Below are positions 1 to 47,151 of a stretch of 64,000 nt of DNA, one piece after another. Source of the stretch: Jannaschia donghaensis (lineage in GTDB: Bacteria > Pseudomonadota > Alphaproteobacteria > Rhodobacterales > Rhodobacteraceae). Numbering within the stretch: the stretch's first letter is position 1; each line of letters starts with the position of its first letter. Location: assembly GCF_001403795.1 (NCBI RefSeq), contig NZ_CXSU01000012.1, positions 546,216-610,215 of the forward strand, in the 5' to 3' direction. A model generated the notes under the pieces. It was not told the DNA's origin and did no database searches. It saw only the letters and a list, made by a program, of their open reading frames with translations. The position numbers were made by a program, and so were the translations under genes.

Positions 1-410
1 AACAGCCAGAACGATAGGTTGTTGAGGCGCGGAAACGCCATGTCCGGCGCACCGATGTGCAGCGGCATGAAGTAGTTGCCGAAGCCGCCGAAGAGCGCGG
101 GGATGACGACGAAGAACATCATCAGGATGCCGTGGCCGGTGATCAGGACGTTCCAGAGGTGTCCGTTCGGGGTACATTCGCCGGCTGCGGCCGCAGTCAT
201 CCGCGCGCCTTCCAGGCACATGTACTGGACACCTGGGTCCATCAGCTCCAGCCGCATGTAGACGGTGAAGGCCACCGAGATGAAACCTGCGAATCCGGAG
301 ACGAACAGGTAAAGGATCCCGATATCCTTATGATTTGTGGACATGAACCAGCGCGTGAAGAAGCCGGGCTTCTCGTGCGTGTCGTGTCCGGCGTGTGCAG
401 CGTCAGCCAT
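1..410 (-). CDS. ctaD: Cytochrome c oxidase subunit I (aa3 type), N-terminal part
   Basis: This is the catalytic haem-copper subunit of the terminal oxidase in the inner membrane. About 136 codons are present and the gene runs off the left edge. The reading frame starts at the ATG complementary to 408-410, with a GGGGAG ribosome binding site about 8 bases upstream. The protein opens with a short His-rich cytoplasmic tail, then the family signature [11 protein letters not shown] and a first membrane helix. A second helix follows with the motif GHGILMMFF, which contains the low-spin haem a ligand histidine, and then [22 protein letters not shown]. These are highly conserved subunit I segments. 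Between helices 1 and 2 is a short periplasmic loop with two cysteines, common in roseobacter homologues. No other oxidase gene is visible in the window. Confidence 0.95.
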
Positions 411-36739: not shown

Positions 36740-36850
36740 TCCCGCTTGTCGCGCGGGATGCCGCGAAGTCGTGCCTGTGCGCAGGCGGTCACACGGCAAG
36801 GTCATGGCGGTGTCTGCCGCAAACACCCCAAGGGACGAAAGAAACCCAAA

Positions 36851-37417
36851 ATGTCGGACCAACGCATCTTTACTCATGACGCTTTCCCGGTGATCGCGCC
36901 GATCGCGCTGCGCTTTACGCCCGGCACCTGTCTGGCGACGCCGGATGGCCCGCGTGCCGTCGAAACATTGATCGTCGGCGACCCTGTCGACACCCGGGAT
37001 GGCCCCAAGCGTATCGCGCGGTTGGACGTCGTTCGCCGTCCGCGCAGCGAATGGACCTATGATCGCGACGCCTGGCCCATCCGGGTGCCGGTCGGGTCGC
37101 TGGGCAACGCGCGCCCGATGCGGTTGTCCCCCGATCAGCGGATCCTGTTGTCGGGGGACACCGTCGCGCGCGTGTGTGCGGTGCGGGAGATTTCGGTGGC
37201 GCTGCGCGATCTGATCGGTCTGCGTGGCCTGATCGGAGAGCGGCCCCTGGCGGATCTGCGGTATCACGGGTTGTCGTTCGGCATTCCGGCCGTAATCGAA
37301 GCCGAGGGTGTCCCCTGCGAGATCGAGGCGGGGGACGCGGCCATCGTCGCGCAAGAAATGGCGCGGGCCGCGTTCCAGGAGATGCACGCCGCCGGAGAGC
37401 CGCCGCTGAAACGCTAG
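36851..37417 (+). CDS. Hint-domain-like protein lacking catalytic residues
   Basis: A 188-residue protein made almost entirely of a Hint-like fold. The signature FTPGTCLATPDGPRAVETLIVGDPVDTRDG (22-51) matches bacterial Hint domains, but the nucleophile Cys that normally precedes FTPGT is Arg21. The later SPxHR motif reads SPDQR (Gln96), so the His is also lost. Autoprocessing is therefore unlikely. It may be a non-processing relative. I chose ATG 36851; only a weak AAGGGA-type site lies about 20 bases upstream. Confidence 0.75.
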   Translation: MSDQRIFTHDAFPVIAPIALRFTPGTCLATPDGPRAVETLIVGDPVDTRDGPKRIARLDVVRRPRSEWTYDRDAWPIRVPVGSLGNARPMRLSPDQRILLSGDTVARVCAVREISVALRDLIGLRGLIGERPLADLRYHGLSFGIPAVIEAEGVPCEIEAGDAAIVAQEMARAAFQEMHAAGEPPLKR

Positions 37418-37930: not shown

Positions 37931-40123
37931 TCAGGCGGCGGCGCGGGCAGTCCCATCGTAGAAGACTTCGCCGTTGTCGGCCATCTTGCGCAGCAGATCC
38001 GGTGTTTTGAACCGATCGCCGTGTTTGGCGGTCAGCGCCTCGCAGGTTTCCGCCGCCCAAGCCGATCCGACGATGTCGAGCCAGCTGAAGGGTCCGCCCG
38101 ACCACGGCGCGAAGCCCCAGCCCAGGATCGCCCCGACGTCGCCTTCGCGGATGTCCTCCAGCACGCCTTCCTCCAGCGCGCGAACGGCTTCCAGCACTTG
38201 CGCGAACATCAGACGGTTCTGCACCTCGTGCAGGTCGGGTTGATCGTCGGCCAGCGGATAGCGGGTGCCCAACTCCTCCCAAAGACCCTGACGCTTGCCC
38301 TTGTCGTCGTAGTCGTAGAAGCCCGCGCCGTTCTTCTTGCCCAGACGGTCGGCGTCCTTGAAGGCGAACAGCACTTCGTCGACGGCCCCGTCGGGATACG
38401 CATCGCCCATGGCGGCCTTGGTTGCGACGGCGATCTTCACGCCCAGATCGATGGAGGTCTCATCCACCAGTTGCAGCGGACCGAGCGGGAAGCCGAGCTG
38501 CTTGGCCGCGTTTTCGATTAGCGAGGGGGAGACCCCTTCGGCGACCATGCGGATGCCTTCGTTGATGTAGGGAATGATGCAGCGGTTGGCGTAGAAGAAC
38601 CGTGCGTCGTTCACCACGATGGGCGTCTTGCGGATCTGGCGCACGAAATCGAGCGCCTTAGCCACGGCGACGTCGCCCGTCTGCTTGCCCTTGATGATCT
38701 CGACCAGCAGCATCTTGTCGACGGGCGAGAAGAAGTGGATGCCGATGAACTGCTCGGGGCGGACGCTGGCCTTGGCCAGTTCGGTGATCGGCAAGGTGGA
38801 GGTGTTGGTGGCGAAGATGCAGTCGTCGCCCACGATGGCCTCGACCGCCTTGGTCATCTCGGCCTTGACGCCGACATCCTCGAACACCGCTTCCACGATC
38901 AGGTCGCAGCCCTTGAGCGCCTCGAGGTCGGTGGTCGCCGATATACGCCCCAGAACCTCGTCCTTCTTCTCTGCCGTGACCTTCTTGCGGGACATGCCCT
39001 TGTCCAAGATCCCCTCGGCATAGCCCTTGCCCTTGTCGGCGGCGGCCTGTTCGCGGTCGATCAAAACGACTTCGATACCGGCGTTGGCCGAGACATAGGC
39101 GATCCCGGCCCCCATCATGCCCGCGCCCAGGATGCCGACCTTGGACACCTTCTGGTCCGGCGCGTCGGGACGGTTCGCGCCCTTTTCCAACGCTTCCTTG
39201 TTGATGAAGAGCGAACGGATCATCGCCTCGCTGCTGGGGTTCATCAGAACGTGGGTAAACCAGCGCGCCTCGATCTTGAGCGCGGTGTCGAACGGCACCA
39301 GCGCGCCTTCGTAGACAGCCGAGAGCAGTGCCTTGGCAGCGGGAAACGCCCCTTGGGTCTTGCCGTTGACCATGGCGGACGCGCCGACGAACGTCATGAA
39401 GCCGGCGGGATGGTAGGGCGCGCCGCCCGGCATCTTGTAGCCTTTCGCATCCCAGGGCTTGAGGATGTCGGCATCCGTGGCCGACAGGACCCAGGCGCGG
39501 GCGTCGGCCATCGGATCGGCGCTGACCTCGTCGATCAGACCGGCCGCCTTGGCTTTCTTCGGATCGCTCAGCTTGCCCTCAAGAAGGAAGGGCGAGGCCG
39601 CCATGGCCCCCAACTTTTTGGACAGGCGCGTGGTGCCGCCCATGCCTGGAAAGATGCCGACCATGATTTCGGGCAGGCCGATCTTGGCCTTGGGGTTGTC
39701 GGCGGCGAAGATGCGGTGGCAGGCAAGCGGAATTTCGAACCCGATGCCCAGCGCGGTGCCCGGAAGGACGCAAGCGACAGGCTTGCCGCCCTTGTTGGTC
39801 TTGGGGTCCATGCCCGCGCGTTCGATCCGGCGCAGGATGCCGTGGGATTTCATCAACCCGTCCATCATGCCCTGCGCGGGGTCGTCGCCGGACATCGCCT
39901 TCATCTTGGCGATGACGTTGAGGTCCATGCCGCCGGCAAAGCTGTCGGGCTTACCGCTGGTGATGACGATGCCCTTCACATCGTCGTCGGCCAGTGCATC
40001 GGTCACGCAGGCGTCCAGGTCGTCCCAGCCTTCCAGGCTGAGGACGTTCATGGACTTGGCCTTCACGTCCCAGGTGATGGTCGCGACGCCGTCGGCGTCT
40101 TTGGTCAGGGTAAAATCGGTCAT
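37931..40123 (-). CDS. fadB: Fatty acid oxidation multifunctional enzyme (enoyl-CoA hydratase / 3-hydroxyacyl-CoA dehydrogenase)
   Basis: A 730-residue enzyme. The hydratase/isomerase half (1 to about 190) has SFAGGMDL and the active-site PEIMVGIFPGMGGTTRLSK. The dehydrogenase half has the NAD loop VGILGAGMMGAGIAYVSANAG and the HFFSPVDKMLLVEIIKG motif with its catalytic His. It carries out the two middle steps of beta-oxidation. ATG 40123 and 40126 are adjacent; I chose 40123 because GAGAG spacing is better. It is the last gene of the operon after three unusual paralogues. Its partner thiolase is the gene at 41586-42797. Confidence 0.94.
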   Translation of the reverse strand: MTDFTLTKDADGVATITWDVKAKSMNVLSLEGWDDLDACVTDALADDDVKGIVITSGKPDSFAGGMDLNVIAKMKAMSGDDPAQGMMDGLMKSHGILRRIERAGMDPKTNKGGKPVACVLPGTALGIGFEIPLACHRIFAADNPKAKIGLPEIMVGIFPGMGGTTRLSKKLGAMAASPFLLEGKLSDPKKAKAAGLIDEVSADPMADARAWVLSATDADILKPWDAKGYKMPGGAPYHPAGFMTFVGASAMVNGKTQGAFPAAKALLSAVYEGALVPFDTALKIEARWFTHVLMNPSSEAMIRSLFINKEALEKGANRPDAPDQKVSKVGILGAGMMGAGIAYVSANAGIEVVLIDREQAAADKGKGYAEGILDKGMSRKKVTAEKKDEVLGRISATTDLEALKGCDLIVEAVFEDVGVKAEMTKAVEAIVGDDCIFATNTSTLPITELAKASVRPEQFIGIHFFSPVDKMLLVEIIKGKQTGDVAVAKALDFVRQIRKTPIVVNDARFFYANRCIIPYINEGIRMVAEGVSPSLIENAAKQLGFPLGPLQLVDETSIDLGVKIAVATKAAMGDAYPDGAVDEVLFAFKDADRLGKKNGAGFYDYDDKGKRQGLWEELGTRYPLADDQPDLHEVQNRLMFAQVLEAVRALEEGVLEDIREGDVGAILGWGFAPWSGGPFSWLDIVGSAWAAETCEALTAKHGDRFKTPDLLRKMADNGEVFYDGTARAAA

Positions 40124-40150
40124 CATGCTCTCTTCGCGGGTTTGATTTGA

Positions 40151-40573
40151 TCAGGCCTCGTCATCGACGGCATAGCGGGCCTTGCGCAGGGTCGCGCGCA
40201 CGCCCCGGCCGAGCCAGACGTCGTGATGTTTCAGCAGACTGGCCTCGCTGGAATAAGGCTCGATGAGGTGGCTGGCGCCGTCGAGGACATAGACGCGGTG
40301 AAACCCGTCTATCCGATCCTCGTCGTCGCCGGTGAAGGCGGCCGCGATGGCCACCCGGTGATACCCGGTCGCGCCCATTTCCTGTAGGCGGTCGCGGAAC
40401 TTCGTGGCCCACTCGATCAGGGTCGCGGGGCTGTCGACGGTCGTGACTTCTTCGTCGACCAGCAACTCGTGCGGATAGGTCATCAACCGGGTCACCGCCT
40501 CGAAGTCACGGATCCAGATGAGGTGAGAGACCTGATCCAGGTGGTCCTGATAGATTTCGAGTGCAGTACTCAT
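40151..40573 (-). CDS. Fad-operon paralogue 3 (NTF2-like fold, unknown function)
   Basis: A 140-residue protein, one of three tandem paralogues. Shared pattern: IYQDHLDQVSHLIWIRDFEAVTRLMTYPHELLVD, FRDRLQEMGATGYHRVAIAAAF, DRIDGFHRVYVLDGASHLIEPYSSE. The other two have GATAFHR/GATGYHR and YLTDPYxCxM at the same positions. The pattern and size suggest an NTF2/SnoaL-like fold. It lies 27 bases upstream of fadB. I chose ATG 40573 with AAGGG upstream. It is the most divergent copy (FTGDDEDRID instead of FDPxDxxRI). No catalytic residue can be named. Confidence 0.8.
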   Translation of the reverse strand: MSTALEIYQDHLDQVSHLIWIRDFEAVTRLMTYPHELLVDEEVTTVDSPATLIEWATKFRDRLQEMGATGYHRVAIAAAFTGDDEDRIDGFHRVYVLDGASHLIEPYSSEASLLKHHDVWLGRGVRATLRKARYAVDDEA

Positions 40574-40678
40574 GCCGAAGCCCTTCGAGTGACGCGTCCG
40601 GCGACACATTTGCCACGCCGTGTAGCCGGGGTCACACCCCAACGGACGGGACGGGCGCAGGGGCTGGGGACGCGGGCG

Positions 40679-41140
40679 TCAATCATGGGTCAACTGGTTC
40701 ACGGGACGGTTGCGAATATTGTCGCGGTGGTAATAGGCCATGCCGCTGTTGCGGACCGAAACCCTGATCGCATCGGCCAGCCAGCGCCCGTCCGCTTGCT
40801 GAACGATCGACATCGCGCAGTCGTAGGGGTCGGTCAGATAGCTTCCGCCCCGCATGACATAGGTTCGGTGGATACCGATGATCCGATTTTCGTCGTTGGG
40901 ATCGAACCGCGCCTCGCGGCACAAACGGTGGAAGGCGGTCGCCCCCAGCGCGCTGAGGCTTTCGCGAAACGCCTCGGCGTCCTTGCTCTGCTCCTCGGGG
41001 TTGGAGATGATCCGGTCGGCTTCGGGCAGGTGGATCACATGCGGATAGAACAGCATGGCGGCCACGCCATCCGCTTCGCCGTTCCAAAGATGGCCGGAGA
41101 CGAGGTCGAGATGGGTCTGATATGTCGTGCGGGCGGTCAT
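40679..41140 (-). CDS. Fad-operon paralogue 2 (NTF2-like fold, unknown function)
   Basis: A 153-residue protein. It has YQTHLDLVSGHLWNGEADGVAAMLFYPHVIHLP, LSALGATAFHRLCREARFDPNDENRIIGIHRTYVMRGGSYLTDPYDCAM and a last strand WLADAIRVSVR. Clearly homologous to its neighbours on both sides. ATG 41140 overlaps the stop of paralogue 1 by four bases (ATGA). The longer upstream frame is antisense-like and dismissed. The gap to paralogue 3 is 105 bases, the only loose junction within the trio. Confidence 0.82.
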   Translation of the reverse strand: MTARTTYQTHLDLVSGHLWNGEADGVAAMLFYPHVIHLPEADRIISNPEEQSKDAEAFRESLSALGATAFHRLCREARFDPNDENRIIGIHRTYVMRGGSYLTDPYDCAMSIVQQADGRWLADAIRVSVRNSGMAYYHRDNIRNRPVNQLTHD

Positions 41141-41586
41141 TGAATTTGCCCCTCGCGGTTTTCGGGATGGGCCTTGGCACTGGGGATGCCGTGGCGCAGC
41201 GGCGGAACGACGATATCGGCGATCATCCACTCCGCCCCTTCGTGGACCAGGACCATTTCGCAATTATACGGGTCGGTCAGGTAGTTCCCGCCCCGCAGGA
41301 TGTATGTCCAATGCCCGCCGGTGATCCGATGGCGGTCCAGCGGGTCGAAGCTGGCATGCTCGCACACCCGGTGATAGCCGGTCGCGCCAAGCCCATCCAG
41401 GTGATCGCGGAACCGGGCCGCCATGACAGCGAAATCGTCGGGGCCGTCGTATTGCCGGTTGCCGTCGGAAAATCGGATGATGTGGGGAAAGCGGTTCACG
41501 GCAATAATGGTCTCATAATCGCGGTCCCACAGCGCACGGGACACCAGGTCGAGGTGTGCCTGATAGATGTCCCGTGCGTCTTGCAT
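41137..41586 (-). CDS. Fad-operon paralogue 1 (NTF2-like fold, unknown function)
   Basis: A 149-residue protein of the same family. It shows IYQAHLDLVSRALWDRDYETIIAVNRFPHIIRF, FRDHLDGLGATGYHRVCEHASFDPLDRHRITGGHWTYILRGGNYLTDPYNCEM and EWMIADIVVPPLR. The ATG at 41586 overlaps the fadA stop by one base (TGATG), and its stop overlaps paralogue 2. It is thus strongly linked to fatty acid oxidation. A thioesterase- or isomerase-like role of the NTF2 type is conceivable, but there is no evidence beyond fold-like pattern and context. Confidence 0.82.
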   Translation of the reverse strand: MQDARDIYQAHLDLVSRALWDRDYETIIAVNRFPHIIRFSDGNRQYDGPDDFAVMAARFRDHLDGLGATGYHRVCEHASFDPLDRHRITGGHWTYILRGGNYLTDPYNCEMVLVHEGAEWMIADIVVPPLRHGIPSAKAHPENREGQIQ

Positions 41587-42797
41587 CAGACGCGCTCGAT
41601 GATGGTGGCGGCGCCCATACCGGATGCGACGCAGAGCGTGGCAAGACCCGTGCCCTTGCCGGTCCGCTCCAACTCATCCAGCAGGGTGCCGATGATGATC
41701 GCGCCGGATGCGCCAAGGGGGTGCCCCATCGCGATGGCCCCGCCGTTCACGTTGACCTTCGCGTGATCGACATCGAACGCCTGCATGAAGCGCAGCACGA
41801 CCGAGGAGAATGCCTCGTTCACTTCGAACAGGTCGATGTCGTCGATGGACATGCCCGAATCCGCCAAAATCTTCTGCGTGGCCGGGACGGGACCGGTCAG
41901 CATGATGGTCGGATCGGTCCCGATCTTGGCGGTGGCGCGGATGCGCGCGCGGGGCGTCAGGCCCCATTTTTCCCCGAATTCCTTATTGCCGATCAGGACC
42001 CCGGCAGCGCCGTCCACGATGCCGGATGAATTGCCTGCGGTGTGGATGTGGTTGATGCGCTCAAGGTGCGGGTATTTCATCATGGCGATCTTGTCGAAGC
42101 CGGGCATGGTGGTGCCCATCGCCTCGAACGCGGCGTTCAGGCTGCCCAGCGACTGCATGTCGGTGCCCGGCCGGATGTATTCGTCGTGATTCAAGATGGT
42201 CAGGCCGTTGATGTCCCGAACCGGCAGGATCGACTTGTCGAAGCGCTTATCCTCCCAGGCGGCGACGGCGCGCTTCTGGCTTTCGACGGCCAGGGCGTCC
42301 GCGTCGTCGCGGGTGAAGCCGTATTCGGTGGCGATGATGTCGGCCGAAATGCCCTGGGGCACGAAATAGCTGTCCATCGCGATCGACGGATCGACCGCGA
42401 TCGCCGCGCCGTCGGACCCCATGGGCACACGGGACATGCATTCGACGCCGCCCGCGATATAGCCCATGCCCGCGCCGCCGCGGACCTGGTTGGCGGCCAG
42501 GTTCACCGCCTCCATGCCCGACGCGCAGAACCGGTTGATCGACAAGCCGGGGATGCGTTCGTCCAGACCCGACGCAAGAACGGCCGTCCGTGCCAGGCAT
42601 CCGCCCTGTTCCATCACCTGCGTGGCGTTGCCCCAGATCACGTCTTCGACCGCGTGCCCCTCGAATCCGTTGCGGTCCTTCAGCGCATCCAGCACGCCGG
42701 CCGACAGGCGCGCGGCGGTCACCTCGTGCAGCGATCCGTCCTTGCGGCCCTTGCCGCGGGGCGTTCGGATCGCGTCGTAGATATAGGCTTCGGTCAT
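41586..42797 (-). CDS. fadA: Acetyl-CoA C-acyltransferase (3-ketoacyl-CoA thiolase)
   Basis: A 403-residue thiolase, the last step of beta-oxidation. The nucleophile is Cys91 in NRFCASGMEAVN. Other active-site blocks are VNEAFSSVV, GGAIAMGHPLGASGA (His) and CVASGMGAA (the second Cys). ATG 42797 follows GGAGAAC. It is in the operon after a GST gene and is translationally linked to paralogue 1. Together with fadB and the acyl-CoA dehydrogenase it covers all steps from acyl-CoA onward. Confidence 0.96.
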   Translation of the reverse strand: MTEAYIYDAIRTPRGKGRKDGSLHEVTAARLSAGVLDALKDRNGFEGHAVEDVIWGNATQVMEQGGCLARTAVLASGLDERIPGLSINRFCASGMEAVNLAANQVRGGAGMGYIAGGVECMSRVPMGSDGAAIAVDPSIAMDSYFVPQGISADIIATEYGFTRDDADALAVESQKRAVAAWEDKRFDKSILPVRDINGLTILNHDEYIRPGTDMQSLGSLNAAFEAMGTTMPGFDKIAMMKYPHLERINHIHTAGNSSGIVDGAAGVLIGNKEFGEKWGLTPRARIRATAKIGTDPTIMLTGPVPATQKILADSGMSIDDIDLFEVNEAFSSVVLRFMQAFDVDHAKVNVNGGAIAMGHPLGASGAIIIGTLLDELERTGKGTGLATLCVASGMGAATIIERV

Positions 42798-42817: not shown

Positions 42818-43450
42818 TCAGGCGCGGTCGCTGGGGCGTCCGGGCATCAGGTCATAGGGATGTTTCCAGCCGGGCAGGGCGGCGATGCGCCCCAGCCAGG
42901 CGTCGATGGCGGGGTATTCGGTGCGGTCGAACCCAAAGGGTTCGGGGTAGTAAAGGTATCCACAGCACGACAGATCGGCGTTGGTCACGCCGTCGCCGAC
43001 GATCCAGGCGCGTCCGTCCAGGTGGCGGTTCAAGGTGTCATAGGCGGATTTCAGGCGGGCCTGGGTGAAGGCGATCACCTCGGCGGGCCGTTTGTCTTCG
43101 GGCAGGAAGTTCATCAGGAACCGCAGCATTCCGGCCTGCGACGACAATTTGTGATTGTCCCACAGGACCCAGCGCAGCACTTCCAGATGTTCGCCCGGCG
43201 CGCCGCCATGTTTGCCGGTTTTTTCGGTGACATAGGCCTGGATCGCTCCCGATTGCGACAAGCGGATATCGCCGTCCACCAGAACGGGAGCCTCGCCCAT
43301 GCCGTTTTCCGCGCGCCATTCGGGGGTGCGGGCCTGACCGCCGAAGAAATCGACGAACACCGGCTGCCAGTCGACGCCCGCCAGTTCCAGCGCCAGCGCC
43401 GCCTTGTAGCTGTTCCCGCTTTCACCGAAGCAGTGCAATTCCATCGTCAT
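42818..43450 (-). CDS. Glutathione S-transferase family protein
   Basis: A 210-residue GST-fold protein. The thioredoxin-like N-terminal domain has ESGNSYKAALALELAG, APVLVDGDIRLSQSGAIQAYVTEKTG (cis-proline and the ES/QSGAI glutathione-binding motif), then an all-helical C-terminal domain with WIVGDGVTNADLSCCGYL. ATG 43450 follows GGAGG. It lies between the small protein and fadA in the beta-oxidation operon. A role may be protection against reactive acyl or aldehyde compounds; that is inference. Confidence 0.88.
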   Translation of the reverse strand: MTMELHCFGESGNSYKAALALELAGVDWQPVFVDFFGGQARTPEWRAENGMGEAPVLVDGDIRLSQSGAIQAYVTEKTGKHGGAPGEHLEVLRWVLWDNHKLSSQAGMLRFLMNFLPEDKRPAEVIAFTQARLKSAYDTLNRHLDGRAWIVGDGVTNADLSCCGYLYYPEPFGFDRTEYPAIDAWLGRIAALPGWKHPYDLMPGRPSDRA

Positions 43451-43491: not shown

Positions 43492-43710
43492 TCAGCTCTT
43501 CTCCTGTCGTCTTGCCAGCATCGCCTTATGCAGTTGCAGGCGGTGGGGCAGGTTGTCGCCGTTGGTCACGCTTTCGAAGTTTTCGAACAGGAACGACAAC
43601 GCCTCTCCTTCGTCCAGCCCTGCCTCGCCTGCGAATTTTTTCAAACGTCTATATCCGGCTTCGGACATTTGCGCCGGAAAGCGGCGGGTAAGGCGTTGGG
43701 CACGGGCCAT
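43492..43710 (-). CDS. Small basic protein in the beta-oxidation operon
   Basis: A 72-residue protein, basic at the start (MARAQRLTRRFPAQMSEAGYRRLKKFAGEAGL) with a helical middle (DEGEALSFLFENFES) and a basic end. I chose ATG 43710 with GGAG upstream. An ATG 18 codons earlier would overlap the acyl-CoA dehydrogenase gene and lacks a ribosome binding site. The start region looks like a ribbon-helix-helix N-terminus (RFPAQMSEAGYRRLKKFA), which is a tentative thought. Between the acyl-CoA dehydrogenase and GST genes. Confidence 0.68.
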   Translation of the reverse strand: MARAQRLTRRFPAQMSEAGYRRLKKFAGEAGLDEGEALSFLFENFESVTNGDNLPHRLQLHKAMLARRQEKS

Positions 43711-43760
43711 CGATACTCCGGTGTTCTGTCGACCCATCATGGGCCGACAGAACGGGATCG

Positions 43761-45539
43761 TCAAAAGGCGGTCGACTCCAGCGCCATCACGGTTTCGGGA
43801 CCAGTTTCGATCCGGGCCAGATGCATCTTCGTCGCCGGCAGTTGACGCGCCATGTAGTAGCGGCCCGTCGCGATCTTGGCTTCCAGAAAATCGCGGTCAG
43901 CCCCGTCTTCCTTGAGCGCCTCGCCCGCGGCCTTGGCCATCTTGGCCCACATCAGGCCCAACGCGACATGACCGAACATGGTCATGAAGTCGTAAGATCC
44001 CGACAGGGCCGCGTTCGGGTTCTTCATGCCGTTCTGCATGAAATACATGCCGGCGGCCTGCAGATCCTTCGACGCGGCCTTGAGCGGTTCCAGATAGCCC
44101 GCCTTGAGGACTTCGTCGTCGGCGTTGTCCTTGCAGAAGGATTTCACCATGTCGAAGAAGGCCATGACGTGCTTGCCGCCGTCCTGCGCCAGCTTGCGCC
44201 CCACAAGGTCGAGCGCCTGAACGCCGTTGGCCCCTTCGTAGATCATCGCAATCCGGGCGTCGCGGGCGAATTGGGACATGCCCCATTCCTCGATATAGCC
44301 GTGGCCGCCATAGACCTGCTGCGCGTTGGTTGCCATCTCGAAGCCCTTGTCGGTCAGGAACCCCTTGATGATCGGCGTCAGCAGCGAGATCAGGCCATCG
44401 GCGTCCTTGTCCTCGTTGCGGTGGGCGCGGTCGATCATCATCGCACCCCAGAACACGAAAGCGCGCGCGCCTTCCACGAAGGACTTCTGGTCCATCAGGT
44501 TGCGACGGATATCGGGATGCACGATCAGCGGATCGGCGGGGCCGTCGGGGTTCTTGGTGCCCGTGACGTCGCGCCCCTGAAGGCGGTCGATCGCATATGC
44601 CAACGCGTTCTGATACGCGATCTCGCCTTGGGCGTACCCTTGCAGACCCACACCCAGCCGTGCCTCGTTCATCATGGTGAACATGGCGCGCATGCCTTTG
44701 TGCGCATCGCCCAGCAGATATCCCTCGGCCTCGTCATAGTTCATGACGCAGGTGGAATTGCCGTGGATGCCCATCTTCTCCTCGATCTTGCCGACCGAGA
44801 CACCGTTGCGCGCGCCGAGGTTGCCATCCTCGTCCACCAGCACCTTGGGCACGATGAAGAGCGAGACGCCCTTAATGCCTTCGGGGCCGTCCTTGATCTT
44901 GGCAAGAACCAGATGGACGATGTTGTCGGCCATGTCGTGGTCGCCGGCGGAGATGAAGATCTTCTGGCCGGTGATCTTATACGACCCGTTATCCTGGGGT
45001 TCGGCCTTGGTGCGCATCAGACCCAGGTCGGTGCCGCAATGCGGCTCCGTCAGGTTCATGGTGCCGGTCCATTCGCAGGTGACCATCTTGGGCAGCCACT
45101 TCGCCTTCTGCGCGTCCGTGCCGTGGGCGTGGATCGCGGAATAGGCCCCATGGGTCAGGCCCTGGTACATGTTGAAGGCCATGTTGGCCGACGACAGGAT
45201 CTCGCCCACGCCGGTCTGCATCAGATAGGGCAGGCCCTGGCCGCCATATTCTTCATCGCAGTCCAGCGCGGTCCAGCCGCCGTCGCGGACCTGGTCGAAG
45301 GCTTCCTTGAAGCCGTCGGGGGTGCGCACGATGCCGTTTTCCAGAACGCAGCCCTGCGTGTCGCCGACGGCGTTGAGGGGGTGCAAGACGTCCTGCGCCA
45401 GCTTGCCGGCCTCCTCCAGAACGGCACCTGTGAAATCGCGGTCCAGTTCCTCGTATCCCGGAATATCCTGGGTCGAAGCCTTCAGAACATCGTGCAGTAC
45501 GAACTGCATGTCCTTCGTCGGAGCGGTATAGCTGGGCAT
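43761..45539 (-). CDS. Acyl-CoA dehydrogenase (long, DmdC/AcdA-like)
   Basis: A 592-residue flavoprotein, longer than ordinary acyl-CoA dehydrogenases because of a C-terminal extension. Motifs include [19 protein letters not shown], the flavin-binding [17 protein letters not shown], a central [23 protein letters not shown] block, and the catalytic-base region [19 protein letters not shown]. The family includes the 3-methylmercaptopropionyl-CoA dehydrogenase DmdC of roseobacters. This copy lies in the fatty acid operon, so an ordinary medium/long-chain acyl-CoA is more likely. It could also be a DMSP-pathway enzyme. ATG 45539 follows AGGAGGA. Confidence 0.93.
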
Positions 45540-45618: not shown

Positions 45619-46014
45619 TCAACCGGCCTTGCGGCCCTGTATCTGGTTCATCATCTTGGCACCCCAGCTCAACTGCTCCTCCAGGTCGTCGATCGCGGTG
45701 TCGAGTTCGGCGCGCTGGGCCTTCATCGAGTCCAGACGTTCCTGGCCGATCTCGTAGGAGCGGGCCAGCTGCGTGTACTGATTGTCGCCCAACGTATAGA
45801 GGTCCAACAGCTGCCGGATATCCTCCAGCGAAAAGCCGAAGCGCTTGCCGCGCAGGATCAGCTTGAGCCGCGCGCGATCCCGGCGCGTGAACCAGCGGCG
45901 CTGCCCCTCGCGTTGCGGGAACAGCAGTTCCTTGGCTTCGTAGAACCGAAGCGTGCGGGGCGTGACGTCGAAGGCGTCACACATCTGGCGGATGGTCATC
46001 AAATCGTCGGGCAT
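45619..46014 (-). CDS. MerR-family regulator (copy 1) heading the beta-oxidation operon
   Basis: A 131-residue regulator. The winged-helix domain is MTIRQMCDAFDVTPRTLRFYEAKELLFPQREGQRRWF, with RLKLILRGKRFGFSLEDIRQLLDLY next. A C-terminal coiled coil (ERLDSMKAQRAELDTAIDDLEEQL) should make it a dimer. Members of this branch control fatty acid or branched-chain acyl-CoA degradation. The metal-binding cysteines of metal-sensing MerR proteins are absent. I chose ATG 46014 with AAGGA upstream; the 42 codons before it have no family match. It is followed by the dehydrogenase, and an array of half-sites precedes it. Confidence 0.9.
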   Translation of the reverse strand: MPDDLMTIRQMCDAFDVTPRTLRFYEAKELLFPQREGQRRWFTRRDRARLKLILRGKRFGFSLEDIRQLLDLYTLGDNQYTQLARSYEIGQERLDSMKAQRAELDTAIDDLEEQLSWGAKMMNQIQGRKAG

Positions 46015-46083
46015 CCCGGTTTCCTTTGTCTGCATCGTCGTTGGGGCGCAGATGCGGACGTTGAGAGATCGATACAACCACCG

Positions 46084-46132
46084 GTGACGTTTACGTAAGC
46101 AGGACGTCACGTCATCTATAAGTTGACGTAAC
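46084..46132. promoter_or_regulatory. Array of ACGT half-sites, likely MerR-type operator
   Basis: Within about 50 bases there are five copies of an ACGTMA-like half-site: TGACGT (46085-46090), ACGTAA (46093-46098), ACGTCA (46104-46109), ACGTCA (46109-46114), TGACGT (46124-46129). The first two form an imperfect palindrome TGACGTTTACGTAA, similar to the motif I recall for LiuR-type MerR regulators. It lies 70-120 bases upstream of the merR start, in the operon promoter region. It is the best candidate operator for the MerR pair. Confidence 0.6.
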
Positions 46133-46224
46133 GAATGCAAAGGTAACCCTTGGGCAAGTGAAATTATAAATCTTCATCACGCTGAAGTCTTGGGCAGCTC
46201 CGCTGGAAGGTGCCTCCTCGATGA

Positions 46225-46602
46225 TCAGGTCTTTGAATCGAGTTCCGCCCGGACGCGGTCGCGCAGCGCGGCGAGTTCGGAGATCGCGTCTTCCAGATCG
46301 CGTTTGCGCTCGTCCAGCTCGCGCAGCTGACCCTCCGCCAGATCGATCCAGGCCTGCTTCTGAGTCCGCCCCTCGGGGTCAGCATCGTAGAGTTCTAGCC
46401 ATTGCCGGATCTCCTCCAGCGAAAAGCCGAATTTGCGCCCCCGCAGGATCAGCGTCATCCGCGCCACATCGCGCGCGCCGTAAAACCGGGCACGACCTTC
46501 GCGTGCCGGTGACAGCAGTTCGATGTATTCGTAATGGCGCAGCGTGCGCGGCGTCACATCGAAACGCGCGCACATCTGTTTGAAGTCGATCCTATCGGTC
46601 AT
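46225..46602 (-). CDS. MerR-family regulator (copy 2)
   Basis: A 125-residue protein homologous to copy 1. It has FKQMCARFDVTPRTLRHYEYIELLSPAREGRARFYGARDVARMTLILRGRKFGFSLEEIRQWLELYDAD and a coiled coil (RELDERKRDLEDAISELAALRDRVRAEL). ATG 46602 lies 96 bases from the divergent thioesterase start. It is upstream of the operon-leading copy on the same strand, separated by the half-site array. Two tandem MerR regulators may cross-regulate or form mixed dimers; this is inference. Confidence 0.9.
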   Translation of the reverse strand: MTDRIDFKQMCARFDVTPRTLRHYEYIELLSPAREGRARFYGARDVARMTLILRGRKFGFSLEEIRQWLELYDADPEGRTQKQAWIDLAEGQLRELDERKRDLEDAISELAALRDRVRAELDSKT

Positions 46603-46698
46603 CGCGTCCTCCCCCAAGGCGCAGTCTGGCACGATGACGACGGCTCTGTCTATTGCGTGGCCTTGCGGCAGGGGGCGGGACGCGGCAAGGCTGCTGCC

Positions 46699-47151
46699 AT
46701 GACAGATACGCCCGATCCCGACACCGCCCGCGCCCGCGCCGCCCATCAATTCATCCAGGCTCTGCCGCATTGCCGCGCGCTGTCGATGACGGTGCAGGAT
46801 GTCGGGGCCGGCGAGGCGACGGTCGCCATGCCCTGGTCGGCGCAGATCGTCGGCGACCCGCGCACCGGGGTCGTGCATGGCGGCGCGGTTTCCGCCCTGA
46901 TGGACACAACCGGGGGCGCGGCCGTTCTGTCCCACCCGACGGCCCCGGTTTCGACGGCGACGATGGACCTGCGCATCGATTACATGCGCGCGGCCACGCC
47001 CCACCAGACGATCACGGCCCGCGCCGTGTGCCATCATGTCACGCGGTCGGTCGCCTTCGTGCGGGCCGAAGCCTTCGATGAGGAAACGGACAAGGGCCCG
47101 GTTGCCGTCGCGAACGGGGCCTTCACCCTGGACCGGGGCACGCGCACATGA
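46699..47151 (+). CDS. PaaI-type hotdog thioesterase 1
   Basis: A 150-residue hotdog-fold thioesterase. The signature GVVHGGAVSALMDTTGGAAVL contains the conserved Gly-Gly and Asp of the PaaI/YdiI group, followed by DLRIDYMRAATPHQTITARAVCHH. It hydrolyses acyl-CoA thioesters; the chain is unknown. ATG 46699 has AAGG upstream. The next gene overlaps by four bases, so the pair is co-translated, and the gene diverges from merR copy 2. Confidence 0.88.
   Translation: MTDTPDPDTARARAAHQFIQALPHCRALSMTVQDVGAGEATVAMPWSAQIVGDPRTGVVHGGAVSALMDTTGGAAVLSHPTAPVSTATMDLRIDYMRAATPHQTITARAVCHHVTRSVAFVRAEAFDEETDKGPVAVANGAFTLDRGTRT

Follow-up and report, generated by a model that had tools for sequence, protein, structure and literature searches.

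The enzymes of beta-oxidation are among the best known in biology, and in many genomes of one bacterial family two of their core genes are separated by fast-changing accessory genes. In a stretch of 64,000 nucleotides from Jannaschia donghaensis (the whole of the DNA analysed here, referred to as the window), three such genes stand between fadA and fadB. This raises the question of what kind of proteins they encode, how widely they occur at this position, and what they might do beside two core enzymes.

The fad gene run and its three small genes

All genes of the run lie on the minus strand. The first enzyme gene encodes an acyl-CoA dehydrogenase (43761..45539; Acyl-CoA_dh_C, 4e-35) and is followed by a small ORF of 90 aa with a TTG start (43492..43764), which overlaps the dehydrogenase gene by 4 nt and had no match in a Pfam search, and by a glutathione S-transferase-like gene (42818..43450; GST_N, 1.2e-10). 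Next come fadA (41586..42797), three small genes referred to as copies 1, 2, and 3, and fadB (37931..40126). The fadA product is an acetyl-CoA C-acyltransferase (thiolase) that scores 673.9 bits against NF006090, above the curated cut-off of 514. The fadB product is a multifunctional enoyl-CoA hydratase/3-hydroxyacyl-CoA dehydrogenase, an alpha subunit of the FadJ/FadB type whose best score of 555 bits lies under the curated FadJ cut-off of 869. Copy 1 (41137..41586, 149 aa), copy 2 (40679..41140, 153 aa), and copy 3 (40151..40573, 140 aa) were found to be correct in coordinates, frames, and strands as given by the original prediction, which had placed three tandem paralogues between fadA and fadB.

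From the dehydrogenase gene to fadB, the junctions measure -4, 41, 20, -1, -4, 105, and 24 nt. The copies had been proposed to be co-translated with the beta-oxidation enzymes, and the overlaps behind this proposal are real, being 1 nt between fadA and copy 1 and 4 nt (ATGA) between copies 1 and 2. Copy 3, however, comes after a 105-nt gap and is separated from fadB by 24 nt. Since only two junctions of the copies overlap, two of the three are directly coupled, not all three. A purine-rich, SD-like sequence precedes copy 2, copy 3 (GAAGGG), and fadB. No obvious sequence of this kind precedes copy 1, which overlaps the fadA stop and whose start may resemble an arrangement for termination-reinitiation. 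The G+C content of the copies (61.7-63.1%) is near that of the window (64.4%), so base composition gives no mark of recent import.

Scans of the sequence for promoters and terminators gave results near chance (2 promoter-like sites vs. 1.4 in shuffles, and 6 terminator-like sites vs. 3.8 in shuffles, sd 2.1), and an Rfam search led nowhere. Upstream of the run, a gene for a MerR-family regulator (45619..46140, minus strand; MerR_1, 2e-15) adjoins a second one (46225-47037, minus strand); both are upstream of the acyl-CoA dehydrogenase gene and are possible controllers of the fad gene run. On the plus strand of the window, the ORF at 36746-37417 contains a stretch that resembles by eye a Hint/Hedgehog-type autoprocessing domain, and a similar stretch is present at L116:2125-2472.

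The three copies are 34-41% identical in pairwise comparisons. Their Smith-Waterman scores are 294, 232, and 228, whereas 500 shuffles of each pair reached at most 50, 50, and 51, which rules out a chance resemblance. When the whole genome was searched with copy 1, copy 2 (E 1.0e-33) and copy 3 (E 3.1e-24) were recovered, and no fourth copy was detected at E<=10. The residue pattern by which the paralogues had been recognised is real but is not the same in all three: GATGYHR occurs in copies 1 and 3 and becomes GATAFHR in copy 2, while GGxYLTDPY occurs in copies 1 and 2 and is replaced by GASHLIEPY in copy 3.

Predicted fold and relation to described families

An NTF2/SnoaL-like fold had been guessed from the residue pattern, and structure prediction bears this out for copies 1 and 3. 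The AlphaFold model of copy 1, made from an alignment of 27 sequences, has a pLDDT of 90.9 and a pTM of 0.82, and its elements are H4-20, H24-29, E31-39, E42-46, H49-65, E70-81, E84-98, E107-116, and E119-126. The model of copy 3 (alignment of 12; pLDDT 88.9, pTM 0.82) has the same element order. Both thus display the helix-helix-strand-strand-helix-four strands order of the NTF2 cone, which is assigned to copy 2 by homology. Foldseek comparison of copy 1 with the PDB yielded 372 matches at E<=0.001 (best E 1.4e-6), and the 50 of these that were listed are mostly NTF2, SnoaL, KSI, or cystatin-like entries and designed NTF2 folds. With VIA-align, the best match of both copies is 5iep (copy 1, Z 15.0, rmsd 2.5; copy 3, Z 15.6, rmsd 2.6; 120 aligned residues each). 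CaMKII hubs, NTF2, scytalone dehydratase, and designed ligand binders are among the fold matches listed. The structure search therefore placed copies 1 and 3 in the NTF2 fold rather than in unrelated folds, and we are very confident of this assignment.

The copies share the predicted fold and element order with the NTF2-like superfamily (SnoaL, ketosteroid isomerase, scytalone dehydratase, NTF2, and the CaMKII hub), with Z scores up to 15.6 over 107-133 aligned residues among the matches listed, but in the same matches they are only 5-17% identical to its members. Pfam gave no match for copies 1 and 2 and, for copy 3, just PF21535 at 14.7 bits, under the cut-off of 27; among 27 family members, one weak SnoaL_3 match (E 0.21) was obtained. 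At E<=1, NCBIfam matched none of the three copies. Neither collection thus has a model that reaches its cut-off, and the copies belong to no described Pfam SnoaL/NTF2 family. Sequence searches of solved structures returned no match in a first run and, in a second, nothing better than E 0.2 (phosphatases, endonuclease VIII, and others). Among the literature matches listed, as far as titles and the opening lines of abstracts go, no paper deals with these genes, and one concerns hot-dog-fold proteins. Copies 1-3 are hence members of an undescribed stand-alone NTF2-like family with a well-known fold.

SgcJ, SgcE6, ActVI-ORFA, and Aln2 of polyketide and enediyne clusters are also among the fold matches listed and are, like the copies, small stand-alone cones. 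They are encoded beside thioester pathways, in operons of a type other than fad, and their identity with the copies is 6-17%.

NTF2-like and cupin genes in the fadA-fadB slot

With copy 1 as the query, 16 of 60 genomes matched, namely 16 of the 20 Jannaschia genomes (its own included) and none of the 40 others. These 16 genomes carry one to three copies, and each of the 28 matched places is flanked by fadA and fadB on the same strand. In the other four Jannaschia genomes, the slot contains a divergent NTF2-like gene (G012; tblastn E 5e-6 to 1.2e-5 against the three copies), a cupin (G011), a DUF559 gene (G005), or nothing (G007). A scan of named genomes gave five loci, those of Jannaschia marina, J. 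faecimaris, J. helgolandensis, Hasllibacter halocynthiae, and Rhodalgimonas zhirmunskyi.

A profile built from 27 sequences extended the family to 80 of 295 Rhodobacteraceae genomes, the window's own included; FadB gave a match at E<=1e-170 in 282 of the 295 genomes. Of the 80 positive genomes, 69 (40, plus 28, plus that of the window) have an NTF2 gene on the same strand as fadB and no more than 4 kb upstream of it. The remaining 11 have matches elsewhere or on another contig only. At least two of these (G228 and G182) have fadB fragmented at contig ends, so that placement cannot be judged, and among the slots read in G280, G032, and G085 (L127-L129), that of G032 holds a cupin, and the other two are empty, with a short gap (G280) or a gap of 133 nt (G085). 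Eight genomes with a slot copy have off-slot matches as well, a further twelve in all. Rarity of these NTF2 genes in fad operons, which would have spoken against the original prediction, is ruled out by these counts, and their association with the fadA-fadB slot is well supported; we hold it with the same high confidence as the fold. In a class-wide sample, one of 240 genomes matched, which is the window's own. As far as sequence matches tell, the family is confined to Rhodobacteraceae in the samples searched, which also sets it apart from the wider NTF2-like superfamily.

When 20 positive slots were inspected, fadA was present on the other side in all of them; 11 contain a two-domain NTF2 ORF, and 8 contain a cupin, which is fused to an NTF2 domain in 2 of these 8. 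Between 0 and 4 NTF2 domains were detected in the slot across the bacterial family. The expansion to three copies, on which the original prediction had laid weight, is thus real but not special to this genome, and cupins occupy the same position.

The concentration of a cupin family in the fadA-fadB slot is new here, as is the formation of tandem arrays by both the NTF2-like and the cupin genes. Relatives of the slot cupin were found in 118 of 295 genomes at E<=1e-15. For 39 of the cupin-positive genomes, placement relative to fadB was not possible; in the 79 whose fadB position was known, a cupin lies within 4 kb upstream of fadB in 61, 14 of which have two or more cupins in tandem, and the 18 others have off-slot cupins by weaker matches only (rank 83 or lower by E-value). 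The window's genome has no cupin of the slot family at E<=1e-15. Slot cupins match Pfam Cupin_2, and one of them (L067) matches PDB 3i7d ("sugar phosphate isomerase") over residues 1-152 of 155 with E 5.9e-60. The cupin of 3i7d, a relative of the slot cupin, has a fold unrelated to NTF2, although the slot cupin is sometimes fused to an NTF2 domain. Natural cupin-NTF2 fusions in the fad slot were seen at L061:814-1842 (minus strand) and L077:1135-2157 (plus strand); such fusions directly link the two slot families.

Across 180 genomes with a known fadB place, a set enriched for NTF2 carriers because one part of it consists of those carriers and the four Jannaschia genomes, 67 have a slot NTF2 gene, 61 a cupin, 24 both, and 76 neither. 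Co-occurrence in 24 genomes is what independence would give (67 x 61 / 180 = 22.7). In addition, the slot was read in 40 profile-negative genomes, which come from the upper part of the fadB match list and are not a random draw. It is empty in 27, with a gap of up to 154 nt, and the 13 filled slots hold 9 cupins, 1 NADAR gene, 2 NTF2-looking ORFs, and 1 unassigned gene. The two NTF2-looking ORFs fall below detection by the profile: L080 reached E 6e-4 with a broad profile, and L148, recognised by eye, is 25% identical to L080. The NADAR-domain gene (L147:284-820, minus strand; Pfam 9.6e-48) fills the slot in one relative, and in one Jannaschia genome the slot is taken by a DUF559 (endonuclease-like) gene (L107:3712-4128, minus strand).

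Divergence, conserved residues, and possible roles

The family tree was built by a quick method that left 44 of 91 inner branches open, and only small clades were used. In four related Jannaschia species, copies 1, 2, and 3 form separate clades (SH-aLRT 99, 96, and 99%; 3, 4, and 3 rows); the clades of copies 1 and 2 are sister groups (SH-aLRT 85), and copy 3 falls with genes that are the single or the second copy in other species (92). Since the genes group by copy, the array appears older than the four species, with members gained and lost. In J. helgolandensis, the first copy is shortened and decayed (L028; L101:3574-3879, plus strand), and copies 2 and 3 are intact.

Protein identity between orthologues is 47-55% for copy 1, 67-86% for copy 2, and 61-69% for copy 3, compared with 88-95% for fadA/fadB; copy 1 is the fastest-changing of the three and copy 2 the best conserved. 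For the same species pair, the dN of the copies exceeds that of fadA or fadB by a factor of 1.7 to about 11. The dN/dS ratios are 0.19-0.32 for copy 1, 0.10-0.17 for copy 2, and 0.20-0.25 for copy 3, compared with 0.04-0.11 for fadA/fadB, values that are rough in that many dS estimates of the copies exceed 1 and that the fadB and some fadA pairs come from partial genes. Ratios of 0.10-0.32 indicate that the copies are maintained proteins under purifying selection. Spurious ORFs are ruled out, as dN/dS is well under 1 and the decayed L028 shows what loss looks like.

The explanation that we hold to be the most likely, with a little less than even confidence, is that the copies are ligand-binding accessories of FadAB and not classical NTF2-fold enzymes. 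The original prediction had suggested an accessory role in which binding or isomerisation of thioester, enoyl, or hydroxyacyl compounds would be a putative function. NTF2-like and unrelated cupin families would fill an accessory slot between fadA and fadB, and each NTF2 cone would bind a small hydrophobic ligand without the chemistry of classical NTF2 enzymes. Judging by gene position, the most plausible ligand would be an intermediate or by-product of beta-oxidation that is of the acyl or hydroxyacyl type. Because they are encoded in one gene run with FadA and FadB, the proteins may work next to the FadAB complex, where they would hold, protect, or report on intermediates; ligand binding at the complex is a tentative step, to which we give somewhat less than an even chance. 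The occurrence of tandem copies and of NTF2-NTF2 fusions points to possible homo- or hetero-dimers, in which the cavities may differ. That the NTF2-like family is found mostly at this one slot suggests that it may have a dedicated helper role in fat breakdown. If their role is to retain or monitor acyl intermediates, the copies could account for the way in which these bacteria deal with unusual lipids, such as algal, branched, or oxidised fatty acids, and they would offer a compact, testable module with which fatty acid oxidation could be tuned.

A precedent for non-catalytic, operon-linked NTF2 ligand binders is available. In PMC3924330, the NTF2-like domains DUF3828, DUF3887, and DUF4878 are proposed to bind ligands without catalysis and possibly to regulate their neighbours via fusion or operon linkage. 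The same paper describes secretory signals or lipoboxes for these domains, whereas the Jannaschia copies begin at helix 1 and have no such signal by eye.

Residue conservation was compared among 28 Jannaschia rows (the decayed copy apparently included), 67 other slot rows, and 20 off-slot rows. In each of the three groups, 85-100% of the domains retain P34, R73, and W120. From the alignment, W120, P34, and G90 look structural, and R73 would be the best candidate among the polar residues for contact with a ligand. It is also conceivable, though unlikely, that the family consists of enzymes, a novel group of isomerases, hydratases, or dehydratases with the NTF2 fold that act on unusual (branched, unsaturated, or hydroxylated) acyl-CoA intermediates, with R73, H92, and D13 or D23 as working residues and with duplicates serving different substrates. 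Such enzymes would suit an operon shared with beta-oxidation enzymes, and the fold matches of copies 1 and 3 include scytalone dehydratase (1idp; Z 13.0 and 14.0), bile-acid 7-alpha dehydratase (4l8p; Z 12.9 and 13.4), and a putative ketosteroid isomerase (3hx8; Z 14.2 and 15.4). In the Jannaschia rows, D13, R73, and H92 are conserved at 96-100% and D23 at 82%. However, D13 and H92, both at 96% in Jannaschia, fall to 80% and 62% in the other slot rows and to 47% and 53% off-slot (D23: 84% and 75%), and fast divergence is unusual for an enzyme of a core pathway.

The position of the catalytic residue also bears on this alternative. NTF2 enzymes of the scytalone dehydratase, BaiE, and LinA type use a helix-1 Asp plus a His in the sheet; the catalytic Asp lies at the end of helix 1. 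By alignment offset (model 1..133 = chain 12..155 for 1idp; 1..133 = 14..150 for 4l8p, or 1..132 = 16..149 with copy 3), the Asp position falls at about residues 20-22 here. In Jannaschia, residue 20 is either W or L, and the other slot copies often have L, M, or W there; residue 21 is variable, and residue 22 is R or G; the conserved D23 (82-84% in the two slot groups) adjoins. With D23 so near, the residues found at 20-22 favour ligand binding over classical chemistry only tentatively.

Another account, which we regard as improbable, treats the fadA-fadB junction as a permissive landing site, where small genes become coupled to an active operon and turn over and where NTF2 and cupin proteins have no role in fatty acid oxidation. 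The 27 empty slots among the 40 profile-negative genomes fit this account and count against an accessory role, because they show that FadAB occurs without a slot gene. The 11 positive genomes with matches only elsewhere or on another contig also count against such a role. The fast divergence, the losses, the decayed J. helgolandensis copy, and the seemingly independent presence of NTF2 and cupin genes are likewise in line with it, and the single-genome NADAR and DUF559 genes indicate that part of the pattern could reflect a permissive insertion site. On the other hand, 9 cupins and 2 NTF2-looking ORFs account for most of the 13 filled profile-negative slots, both families are found mostly at the slot when random landing would scatter them, and the fusions together with purifying selection argue for function.

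It is very unlikely that the copies are purely structural partners (assembly or dimer subunits resembling the CaMKII hub) that shape FadAB and bind no metabolite, since, for all that the listed fold matches include the CaMKII hub and NTF2, that tandem and two-domain forms suit oligomers, and that the genes lie between those of two subunits, the copies are absent from genomes whose FadA is 73-87% identical, and they change while FadA and FadB barely do, when interface proteins would be expected to be more constrained.

With regard to the preferred reading of a ligand-binding accessory, a bolder and rather doubtful form of it would describe FadAB of Rhodobacteraceae as a complex with exchangeable specificity or quality-control modules, for which NTF2 cones and cupins are swapped, multiplied, and fused at a single genomic slot, each tuned to a different awkward acyl intermediate. 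If this were true, the central complex of a core pathway would have dedicated accessory proteins.

Relatives of the copies outside the slot sit at varied places, and their neighbours, read by eye, gave no function. Those at L112:2749-3831 and L113:3022-3492 (both minus strand), which include one tandem pair, lie antisense between genes that resemble ribosomal-protein genes by eye, and they represent a different subfamily with "RTGxALLxGDF"- and "PYPVFS"-like patterns.
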